A stretch of 38,194 nt of DNA, from contig JAKAWP010000006.1 in the NCBI GenBank assembly GCA_021816955.1, forward strand, positions 1-38,194, written 5' to 3'. The translations under genes and the position numbers were made by a program. This document shows positions 30,829-33,775 of this stretch, piece after piece (positions within the stretch are counted from its first letter, which is position 1; each line of letters starts with the position of its first letter). The notes beneath the pieces are model-generated. The model saw nothing but the letters and a program-made list of their open reading frames with translations. It made no database searches and was not told the DNA's origin. Origin of the DNA: Thermoplasmata archaeon (GTDB taxonomy: Archaea > Thermoplasmatota > Thermoplasmata > Lutacidiplasmatales > UBA184).

Positions 30829-31068
30829 TCAACCCCCTCGCGGCTCGACCGGAACGACTCCGCAAGGCTCTCCGGAGCCGTCGGGGCCGACCTCCGACAC
30901 GCTCGTCCCGACGGGGAACGGTCCGTAGTCGAATGTCCCGGCTCCGGGCCACTCACGGGGCGCGTTCTCCGCTTCCCCTGATGTCGGTCGCGGGGTCTCG
31001 AGCGCTTCGGCTCGGAGGTCGTCCGGGCCCGGATTTCTCTCGATGCCGACCGCTTGCGCGACTCGCAA
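30829..31068 (-). CDS. Possible small acidic protein (79 aa), TTG start
   Basis: This lies in the 418-bp gap between the ABC ATPase (30712) and the MetF-like gene (31131). The frame gives 79 residues rich in Glu, Gly and Pro (for example GTFDYGPFPVGTSVSEVG). Chance antisense frames in this GC-rich DNA are usually Arg-rich, so this acidic composition mildly favours a real gene. TTG 31068 is 25 nt from the GCTCTTATCG box (31089-31097), which also serves the divergent MetF-like gene. No family is recognised, the TTG start is weak evidence, and no Shine-Dalgarno site is present. The rest of the gap shows nothing else I can identify. Confidence 0.3.
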   Translation of the reverse strand: MRVAQAVGIERNPGPDDLRAEALETPRPTSGEAENAPREWPGAGTFDYGPFPVGTSVSEVGPDGSGEPCGVVPVEPRGG

Positions 31069-31088
31069 GAGACGGTTCGCGACGAAAG

Positions 31089-31097
31089 CTCTTATCG
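31089..31097. promoter_or_regulatory. TATA-like box upstream of the MetF-like gene
   Basis: GCTCTTATC is 38 nt before ATG 31131 (plus strand). On the minus strand GATAAGAGC is 25 nt before the TTG at 31068, so it may be bidirectional. Confidence 0.5.
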
Positions 31098-31130
31098 ACC
31101 GTTCGTTCGAGCGGGTCGGGCAATTCGAGC

Positions 31131-32081
31131 ATGGGCCGCTCGTTCGACGAAGCGCTGTCCGACCGTCCGCTCTTCTTCGAGCCGGTCCCTCCGCCGGCTC
31201 GAACGAATCCGGCGCGCGCGCAGGAGCAGTTCGCGGCGCTGCGCGACCTGCTGGCGGCCCTCCCGCGCATCGACGCCGTGAACGTGCCCGAACTCGCGGA
31301 AGAGAACCACGACGGCCGCCCGCGGTACCGAACCGAGGACCCGCGGCTGTTCGCCCGGCGGATCCGCGAGGCGACGGGACGCGAGGTGCTCGTCAACAAG
31401 ATCGTCGCGCACCTCGCGGGCGCCGCGGCGATGGAGGAGTGGGCGCGCGCGACGGTCGACGCGGGGGTCCGTCGAGCGGTGCTGGTGGGCGGCTCCAGCC
31501 GGTACATCCCTTACCCGGGTCCGTCCGTCACCGAGGCGAACCGGATCGCCGGACCGATCTTCGGGGCCGCGGGCGGTTCCGTCGGCAACATCGCCATCCC
31601 CCAGCGCGAGAACGAAGCGCACCGGATGCTTCTCAAGACCCGCAGCGGCGCCCGATTCTTCACGACGCAGATCGTCTTCGATCCGCAGCAGACCATCGCG
31701 ATGCTGGCCGAGTACGGGCGCCTCTGCCGTCAGGCGTCGCTTCCCCCCGCGTCGGTCCTGGTCAGTCTCGCCCCGATCGCCGACGAAGGCGACGCGGAGT
31801 TCGTCCGCTGGCTCGGCGCCGACATTCCGGACGCCGTCGAGCGAGAGCTGTTGAACGGCGACGAGTCGTCGATCGGCCGCCGAAGCGCCGCGCATGCCCT
31901 GTCGGTCTGGACGGCGATCCGCGACGCCCCGTCGCTCCGACCGCTCGGCCGTCGCGTCGGCCTCAACGTCGAGCAGATCACGACGCGCCACCTCGCCACC
32001 GCTCGCGCGATGATCGAGCTTTTGCTCCCCGAGATTGAGGGGTCGGACCGCGGATCGGCGGCCCCGGATCCCGTCGCTTAG
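31131..32081 (+). CDS. Methylenetetrahydrofolate reductase-like (MetF/TIM-barrel) protein
   Basis: A 316-residue protein that resembles the MTHFR TIM barrel, which reduces methylene-tetrahydrofolate (or the archaeal methanopterin analogue) to the methyl form. It begins FFEPVPPPARTNPARAQEQF, then has DAVNVPELAEENH, where MTHFRs show substrate and FAD residues. REVLVNKIVAHLAG and GVRRAVLVGGSSRYIPYPG follow the barrel. GNIAIPQRENEAHRMLLK and GARFFTTQIVFDPQQT resemble the MetF FAD and product-release strands. I see no clear NADH-site motif, so the enzyme could use another donor. ATG 31131 is supported by the box. The stop lies 4 nt into the convergent PiT gene. Confidence 0.68.
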   Translation: MGRSFDEALSDRPLFFEPVPPPARTNPARAQEQFAALRDLLAALPRIDAVNVPELAEENHDGRPRYRTEDPRLFARRIREATGREVLVNKIVAHLAGAAAMEEWARATVDAGVRRAVLVGGSSRYIPYPGPSVTEANRIAGPIFGAAGGSVGNIAIPQRENEAHRMLLKTRSGARFFTTQIVFDPQQTIAMLAEYGRLCRQASLPPASVLVSLAPIADEGDAEFVRWLGADIPDAVERELLNGDESSIGRRSAAHALSVWTAIRDAPSLRPLGRRVGLNVEQITTRHLATARAMIELLLPEIEGSDRGSAAPDPVA

Positions 32082-33049
32082 CCGAGGCCGATCGATCGGG
32101 CGCCGATCGAGAGGGCCGTCGACAGACCGAGGGCGACCAGGGGGCCGGCCCCCCATTCGAAGAAGATCTCGCGGAGCAGCGTCCAGCGCACCGAGCGTCC
32201 CCCCACCTTCAACCCGACCCCGATCAGCGCCCCGTTCATCGCTTGGTTCATCGACGAGTAGAAGCCGAGGGAGACGAGAAGCAGGAGCCACGCCGACTGG
32301 GCCAGCTGGGCGCTCACCGCCATTGGTCGGTCGAGGTCGACGATGCCGAACGCGACCCGGTCGACGAGATAGCGGCCGAAGCAGAGGGCGCCCAGCGCGA
32401 GCCCGAGCCCCCCAATCAACGCGGCGAAGACCGCCCCGCTGACGCCCGCCATGACAAACGCGCCGGTCGAATTCGAGACGTCGTTGGCCCCGACGGCGAA
32501 CGCGGTCGCTAAGCCGAGCGCGAGGAAGGTCGCGCGCCCGGCCGCGCTGTGGGAGGCGAAGGGGACAGCCGTCGGACGCAGCCGGTGCAAAAGGTGCACG
32601 AGGCCGTAGGCGAGCGCCCCCGATACGACCGGGGTGATGATCCAGAGGCCGAAGAGGGCGAGGACGACGCGCCAGTCGACCGGCGTCCCGACGGCAAACG
32701 CCGAGCCGATGGCCGAAGCGATGACCACGAGCGTCGTCGAAACGGGCAGGCGCCGGACGAGAAACAAGGTCGCGATCAGGGTGCTCGAACCGAGGAGCGC
32801 GAGCGCGACGCCGATCGGCACCGGCTCGCCCAGAAAGATGTGGTGGCCGACGGTCCGCTCCACCGAATCCCCGGCCAACGCGGCGCCGGCGAAGAGAAAC
32901 GGCATCATCAACCAGATCGCCCACCGACGGGAAACCGACCCGGAGGCGACGGCCATCCCCATGCAGGCGCCGCTGTAGAGCGCGCCGAGGGCGAACGCGA
33001 AGAGAAACCCGCAGACGATGAGCAGGATCGCGGGGATCGAATCGGTCAC
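32078..33049 (-). CDS. PiT-family inorganic phosphate transporter with one degenerate half
   Basis: A ~323-residue membrane protein of the PiT family, with about ten helices. Two inverted halves each normally carry a G-A-N-D-V-A-N-like motif for phosphate and cation. The second half keeps it (VGANDVSNSTGAFV). In the first half the aligned segment reads LGALYSGACMGMAVASG, so the Asn, Asp and second Asn are replaced by Leu, Tyr and Ala. The rest of both halves aligns normally (ASGSVSRR and VERTVGHHI). I prefer GTG 33049; TTG 33061 is the only longer alternative, and no promoter box is clear. It follows the ACT-domain gene in the same direction, 75 nt downstream, so it may share its transcript. 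Confidence 0.85.
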   Translation of the reverse strand: MTDSIPAILLIVCGFLFAFALGALYSGACMGMAVASGSVSRRWAIWLMMPFLFAGAALAGDSVERTVGHHIFLGEPVPIGVALALLGSSTLIATLFLVRRLPVSTTLVVIASAIGSAFAVGTPVDWRVVLALFGLWIITPVVSGALAYGLVHLLHRLRPTAVPFASHSAAGRATFLALGLATAFAVGANDVSNSTGAFVMAGVSGAVFAALIGGLGLALGALCFGRYLVDRVAFGIVDLDRPMAVSAQLAQSAWLLLLVSLGFYSSMNQAMNGALIGVGLKVGGRSVRWTLLREIFFEWGAGPLVALGLSTALSIGARSIGLG

Positions 33050-33124
33050 GGGCCGAATCAACGAGGCGAGGGACGAAGTCGGCCACCCGGGAACGACCGG
33101 GGGACCGACGCCGCGGCCGGGAGG

Positions 33125-33775
33125 CTATCCGAGCGCCTTCGTGACGGTCGCGATCGCGGGGGTAAGGTCATCGCCTCGCAGGATGAAGATCGTGTCCGTG
33201 TAGCACGACATCGCTTGAACGATATTTATTCCTCCGCTCGCGAGGATGCCCGCGAGGTAGCTCAACAAGCCCGGCGTCTCCTCGACGCTCTCGGGGCTCG
33301 TGACGGTCAGCTCGGCGAGTCCTTTGTGGACGGCGATCGTCTGGGACTCCCGCAGGCGCTTCGTCAACCGGCCCACCGACTCCTCGTCCACGATGATCAC
33401 GGTCCCCTGGGAGACCTGGATCAGTCGGCAGAGGGCGTTCTCGTCCAGAAGCTCCTCCACCACGTCCCCGAGCGCCTGCAGCACGTCGAGCCCTTGGACG
33501 ACGGTCAAGGTCGCCACCCGCGTCCGGGTCTCGATCCGGCTCTTGCGGAGGATCCGGTGGATGCCCTCCTCGCGCGCCGAACCCCGGCTCCGCCGGGGGT
33601 ACCGGCGGCAGGCGGCGATCACGGCGGAGAGCTGGCGGATCTCGAGCTCGGCCGCGATGCGCCGGGCGACGGCCGCGTGGTTCGCGATTCCGAGCCGAAG
33701 CGCATCGGCGACGGCCGGGTGCGCGTCGACGTAGTCGCGTACCTGCCGCGCGATCGACCGATGCCCGTCGGTCAT
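33125..33775 (-). CDS. ACT-domain amino-acid regulator (COG2150-like)
   Basis: A 216-residue protein with a C-terminal ACT domain (~150-216): AELTVTSPESVEETPGLLSYLAGILASGGIN (split here by loops), then VQAMSCYTDTIFILRGDD. The middle region (~80-140) has the strand-helix pattern TLTVVQGLDVLQAL, and the N-terminus is helical and basic (residues 1-75: ARQVRDYVDAHPAVADAL, ARRIAAELEIRQ). This resembles predicted archaeal regulators of amino-acid metabolism (COG2150). It is divergent from argG across a 96-bp AT-rich region, so regulation of the arginine operon in response to an amino acid is plausible. ATG 33775 is 31 nt from the CATATTATG box (33801-33810). Confidence 0.75.
   Translation of the reverse strand: MTDGHRSIARQVRDYVDAHPAVADALRLGIANHAAVARRIAAELEIRQLSAVIAACRRYPRRSRGSAREEGIHRILRKSRIETRTRVATLTVVQGLDVLQALGDVVEELLDENALCRLIQVSQGTVIIVDEESVGRLTKRLRESQTIAVHKGLAELTVTSPESVEETPGLLSYLAGILASGGINIVQAMSCYTDTIFILRGDDLTPAIATVTKALG

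Follow-up and report, generated by a model that had tools for sequence, protein, structure and literature searches.

A conserved PiT-fold subfamily predicted to pair one classical half-site with one non-classical His-Tyr half-site

PiT proteins, known as SLC20 in humans, carry two mirrored signature motifs. Each signature aspartate is said, in the study of the transporter TmPiT, to help bind a driving cation. The whole stretch of archaeal DNA analysed here (the window, 38,194 nucleotides from a member of the Thermoplasmata) encodes a protein of this kind that has the aspartate in its second motif only. The locus therefore raises the question of whether such a gene encodes (i) a carrier in decay, (ii) a phosphate carrier whose coupling has changed, or (iii) a carrier of something else.

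The product of the gene (Table 1) matches the Pfam family PF01384 (PHO4) with an E-value of 2e-35 and 122.9 bits, far over the gathering cut-off of 33.7, which together with the predicted fold upholds its original identification as a PiT protein. The open reading frame had been placed at 32078-33049. The gene is correctly located, and the start at 33049 is an in-frame, internal GTG four codons into a frame that opens with TTG at 33061, either start codon being possible. The GC content at the three codon positions (0.66/0.52/0.91) fits a coding frame, and this is the one PHO4 gene found in its own genome (1.42 Mb, 93.5% complete).

Table 1. Positions in the window of the transporter gene, its motifs and its upstream neighbour.
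Feature	Coordinates	Strand	Basis
PHO4/PiT-fold transporter, 327 aa	32078..33061	-	Pfam PF01384, AF2 model, VIA-align to 6L85
First-repeat motif G26-A-L-Y-S-G-A-C-M-G35, aligned with GANDVANSMA (G19-A28) of TmPiT	32957..32986	-	ungapped profile alignment
Repeat-1 P106-V-S-T-T-L111 at the PiT P-x-S-T-T-H position, with the four residues that follow	32717..32746	-	alignment
Second-repeat motif G191-A-N-D-V-S-N197, intact	32471..32491	-	alignment
Repeat-2 Y268-S-S270-M-N272-Q273 (PiT P-x-S-T-T-H position)	32243..32260	-	alignment
DUF7523 + ACT protein, upstream neighbour	33125..33775	-	Pfam; neighbour in 3/33 same-genus loci

The reference structure is 6L85, that of TmPiT, the Na-dependent phosphate transporter of Thermotoga maritima; residue numbering follows the subfamily profile aligned to it, gap-free at both motifs. 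The two homologous repeats of the PiT superfamily are present in the window protein and both align to 6L85. In the second, N257, D258 and N261 of TmPiT correspond to N193, D194 and N197, all kept, and the C-terminal phosphate signature with its aspartate reads GANDVSN, as originally predicted. In the first, N21 is replaced by L28 (His in relatives), D22 by Y29 and N25 by A32, and the N-terminal signature with its aspartate is absent from GALYSGAC. The original prediction was thus right that the two asparagines and the aspartate are not there, and misleading in calling them lost: the segment holds G-A-H-Y-x-G-A-C-M-G, near-invariant in the genus and recurring in a distant family, and the tree described below is unrooted. 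At the P-x-S-T-T-H positions, S108 and T109 are kept in the P-V-S-T-T-L of repeat 1, where Gln111 of the relatives is Leu in the window; the repeat-2 hairpin keeps its serine, with the first threonine replaced by a hydrophobic residue and the second by asparagine.

An AlphaFold2 model of the window protein, built from a 66-row alignment, reaches a pLDDT of 92.2 and a pTM of 0.91. The sole Foldseek matches with an E-value under 0.001 are the two 6L85 chains, and VIA-align superposes the model on 6L85 with a Z-score of 40.7 and an rmsd of 1.9 over 313 residues at 24% identity, the next entry scoring 5.8. The prediction and superposition put forward as a check thus give a PiT fold, in a comparison made at the level of the fold and not of ligand positions, and the whole fold is predicted, flanking helices included, as had been claimed. 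In the model, which was made for the window protein only, a helix break falls at residue 29, within the changed motif. The likeness to TmPiT extends to the whole fold, the second GANDVxN and the serine at both hairpins, whereas the first motif (G-A-L/H-Y-x-G-A in the window and its relatives), the change of the repeat-2 S-T-T-H to S-M-N-Q and a chain shorter by about 75 residues set the window protein apart. On sequence and model together, the protein is a complete member of the PiT fold in which one half-site is classical and the other, though conserved, is not.

The relatives define a subfamily, named HY here from G-[AS]-H-Y-x-G-A. PHO4 matches occur in 32 of the 61 genomes of the same genus (the window's own included, and many of them incomplete), which fits an accessory gene. 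One copy (from G059) is a fragment that ends short of the first-motif region and is left out of the motif counts; the change is present in all 31 others, which match G[AS]xY[STA]GAxxG as GAHYTGACMG (27 copies), GAHYAGACMG (two), GAHYTGACVG (one) and GALYSGACMG (the window), and repeat 2 retains G[AG]NDV[AS]N in every one of the 31. Four of the 77 genomes of f19, a distant family within the class to which the genus belongs, encode, in four genera, proteins with GSHYSGAVMG and GSNDVS[NS] (E <= 1e-26) that likewise keep the second aspartate; the three f19 rows in the alignment are 24-26% identical to the window protein. The scatter of the four loci over genera suggests horizontal transfer. Across 22 HY rows, Tyr29, Ala32, Asn193, Asp194, Ser108, Ser270, Asn272 and Gln273 are each present in 22, Asn197 in 21 and His28 in 21, the exception at position 28 being the leucine of the window; His28 is shared with PitA, and certain other branches have N272 or Q273. 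The motif difference is a subfamily trait, common to all sampled members, rather than a lesion in one gene. Outside the two families, one scan of genome contigs gave two distant relatives, neither of them HY; no HY protein was found in viral contigs, nor on plasmids among the four matches inspected (L096, L097, L098 and L131) out of searches giving 29 and 3 records. A literature search at the level of titles and the beginnings of abstracts recognised no HY-type PiT.

The idea that a single genome holds a pseudogene or has recently lost the motif is rejected, given the presence of the change in 31 of 31 copies and the selection acting on three pairs of relatives. The dN/dS values (NG86) of these three close pairs, 0.069/0.404, 0.088/0.761 and 0.093/0.653 (ratio 0.12-0.17), point to purifying selection in those relatives; the comparison of the window gene with L024 (0.54/0.68) is too diverged to use, the window copy having no close relative. 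Among the 18 genus rows, the longest end branch (0.98) is that of the window copy, which has leucine at positions 28 and 111 against the His and Gln of the remaining 21 HY rows; for these reasons its function may have drifted more than theirs. The same features, along with the lack of a PHO4 match in 29 of the 61 genomes, many of them incomplete, are what could be said for a decaying paralogue that has no transport function and whose motif went through drift. Such decay is very improbable: the frame is intact with a coding GC pattern, the close pairs of relatives are constrained, the motif is retained across about 25% identity, and the gene is the sole PHO4 gene found in its genome.

What the changed half-site means for the substrate can be approached through human PiT2, in which D28, D506, S113 and S593 are reported as critical for phosphate transport, and also E55, H502 and E575, the first of these through E70 of PiT1 as well (PMC3126765). 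With residues matched through conserved neighbours rather than by alignment to the human protein, HY rows keep the equivalents of S113, D506 and S593 among these seven; the equivalents of H502 and E575 are M/V/L and Q. The E55, H502 and E575 positions vary in other prokaryotic rows too, which leaves D28 as the only clean HY difference. Because D28 is critical in PiT2, a tyrosine at its position may imply that the carrier no longer takes phosphate. Escherichia coli PitA, a metal phosphate:H+ symporter, resembles HY in having a histidine at the first asparagine position (GFHD against the GAHY of HY relatives) and a serine at both hairpins, but it keeps the first aspartate and stands on a separate branch.

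One reading of these differences is that the conserved His-Tyr pair and the Asn-Gln of the repeat-2 S-M-N-Q would form a new binding site, and that HY would carry another anion or a small metabolite. Polar residues absent from classical PiT proteins are indeed kept (Y29, N272 and Q273 in 22 of 22 rows, H28 in 21 of 22), and amino-acid biosynthesis genes lie nearby in a share of the loci. Against this, the gene neighbourhood is not conserved and the Ser/Asp features of oxyanion carriers remain, and a carrier of some other solute is rather unlikely.

A second alternative is a sulfate permease, or one for thiosulfate or sulfite, in which the missing first aspartate would make a sulfur oxyanion the substrate in place of phosphate. 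Its model is CysP, the known sulfate member of the PHO4 superfamily. The window protein shares with CysP the superfamily, the short form and the absence of the first aspartate, and typical HY members (L053, for example) also share the M-G-x-x-Y-x-x-G-A positions after the motif. The only NCBIfam model matched by the 32 aligned members, and it is matched by all 32, is the sulfate permease model SulfPermCysPBac (NF053884), an observation that counts against phosphate, though the score of the window protein (94.5 bits) is far under the cut-off of 400, which none of the 389 genomes searched exceeds. The CysP of Bacillus velezensis (L131), in a cysH-cysP-sat-cysC operon, has GASGAAA and GMNNVAN, and in B. 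subtilis CysP both signature aspartates are replaced, according to PMC5840216. The replacements characteristic of CysP are Gly and Asn; the window protein has Tyr at the first position and retains Asp at the second, as do all 22 HY rows. Nor does the window protein belong to a sulfur operon or any sulfate-assimilation context, its neighbours being the DUF7523-ACT protein and a protein weakly like methylenetetrahydrofolate reductase. Membership of CysP itself is rejected on the score and on the intact second motif.

A tyrosine at the N-half aspartate is not without precedent. The Thermodesulfovibrio protein THEYE_A1808, which groups with CysP, has it too, and this lends the sulfate reading some support; in the group to which it belongs, apparently Bi, the C-half Asp is said to be replaced by Asn, whereas HY keeps Asp there, and the combination of an N-half Tyr with an intact C-half is not described in the part of that paper available to us (PMC5840216). 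Among more distant PiT relatives in haloarchaea, some lie beside YeeE/YedE sulfur genes, which also favours sulfur compounds as substrates: on two haloarchaeal plasmids (L097 and L098), PiT-like genes directly follow genes for YeeE/YedE and MBL-fold proteins, that of L097 being near TusA/DsrE as well. Both are annotated as inorganic phosphate transporters, are without either signature aspartate and are possibly misannotated carriers of sulfur compounds.

The genomes argue in the other direction. At about 93% completeness, neither ATP sulfurylase nor PAPS reductase was found in the window's own genome or in the near relative G013. An ATP sulfurylase match is present in 46 of the 61 same-genus genomes, and it does not co-occur with PHO4 (25 of the 32 genomes with PHO4 against 21 of the 29 without, Fisher p 0.77, in a test that ignores descent and incompleteness). 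No sulfur gene was recognised adjoining an HY gene among the neighbours that could be labelled, which were only some of them. Taken with the low model score and the retained second aspartate, these points make a sulfur-oxyanion permease unlikely, and more so than a carrier of another solute.

The relationship of HY to these carriers was placed on a tree of 54 rows selected among the loci available, built without the four motif blocks and left unrooted. The 18 genus rows and the four f19 rows form one branch with a support of 95/89, which answers positively the question raised at the outset of whether the variant forms a clade. The first aspartate is present in all 15 canonical (nine) and PitA-type (six) rows, 13 of which have the second (seven of nine and six of six), and neither is present in the 17 CysP, CysP-like, haloarchaeal and other-branch rows. 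Absence of the first with retention of the second is confined to the HY branch, 22 of the 54 rows, which were chosen and do not give frequencies in nature. A missing first aspartate is in itself not rare: it is absent too from CysP and from several further branches of the superfamily. At a minimum, the unrooted tree requires two changes of the first aspartate and four of the second, and with only two needed the HY branch may never have had the first. The CysP-like rows stand on a branch of their own (99/96). HY joins them in the best tree with a support of 60/28, and a grouping of HY with the canonical and PitA rows is not rejected (p-AU 0.21).

The surroundings of the gene give little guidance. 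As originally noted, an ACT-domain gene lies upstream and no PhoU gene is adjacent; the upstream protein matches DUF7523 with 29.8 bits (cut-off 27) and ACT_7 with 26.8, just under its cut-off of 27, and PhoU is encoded on another contig. This neighbour is confined to the window and its two nearest relatives, G013 and G019, three of 33 same-genus loci, several of which have short upstream flanks, and so it says little about function; an ACT regulator as functional partner is unsupported beyond these three loci. Elsewhere the HY gene stands beside genes for an M20 peptidase, a pirin or a protein that has no Pfam match, and the neighbourhood is not conserved. On the opposite strand, a convergent gene (30933-32081) overlaps the end of the transporter gene by four bases and encodes a protein with a weak likeness to methylenetetrahydrofolate reductase (PF19345, 19 bits, cut-off 27); its relatives (cluster c11) lie near the transporter in G013, G019 and L100. 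In nine same-genus loci the gene upstream of HY belongs to another cluster (c2, for example L056:6007-8310), whose protein has a helix-turn-helix and looks transposase-like by eye, the one member scanned having no Pfam match. The amino-acid biosynthesis genes near HY include, in the window, those for argininosuccinate synthase and lyase, and elsewhere the M20 peptidase, which is perhaps of the ArgE/LysK type.

Contig 69 of the window's own genome holds a Pst-type locus, in which Pfam recognises two permeases with a binding protein and an ATPase, along with a pair of PhoU-domain proteins; its PstA match falls short of the TIGR00974 cut-off, with 181 bits against 193. Across the genus, PstA over the cut-off is found in 22 of the 32 genomes with PHO4 against eight of the 29 without (p 0.002), a difference that ignores descent and may reflect clade membership. 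In three genomes (L123, L124 and L125, from G042, G011 and G029), genes for ATP sulfurylase and an APS-kinase-like protein lie within a few kb of PstS and a fused PstC/PstA, an unusual pairing of sulfate activation with a phosphate-type ABC transporter, labelled from search matches and a reading of the frames.

Changed coupling or a changed substrate, as first proposed, is plausible for HY from its residues. The account that we favour, with confidence a little short of even, is that HY is a PiT-fold carrier whose oxyanion is most likely phosphate, whose cation coupling is altered and whose part is accessory to that of Pst. Such a carrier would be without one of the two cation sites, or would have that site changed. 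Since each signature aspartate reportedly helps bind a driving cation and HY has one, transport would use fewer coupled ions, or else protons. A tetrahedral oxyanion would be the substrate; phosphate, free or metal-bound, is put first because HY, in contrast to CysP, retains the second aspartate together with the two serines, and because genes of sulfate assimilation were not found in the genome. The protein would then serve as an accessory, low-affinity route beside the Pst-type system of the cell. A stricter version can be offered only tentatively: a one-sided PiT, with a classical and a His-Tyr half-site, that would run on half the coupled cations or on protons and possibly carry a new substrate.

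HY is clearly delimited, yet departs only modestly from a carrier family already known. It might be a functional halfway form between the phosphate PiT proteins, which have both aspartates, and CysP-like sulfate carriers, which have neither, and its members warn that annotations as 'inorganic phosphate transporter' within the PiT family may be wrong. From a conserved subfamily in which a single motif is intact, one would learn whether the half-sites of a PiT carrier are separable and how many ions are needed, and also how the phosphate and sulfate carriers of the family are related.
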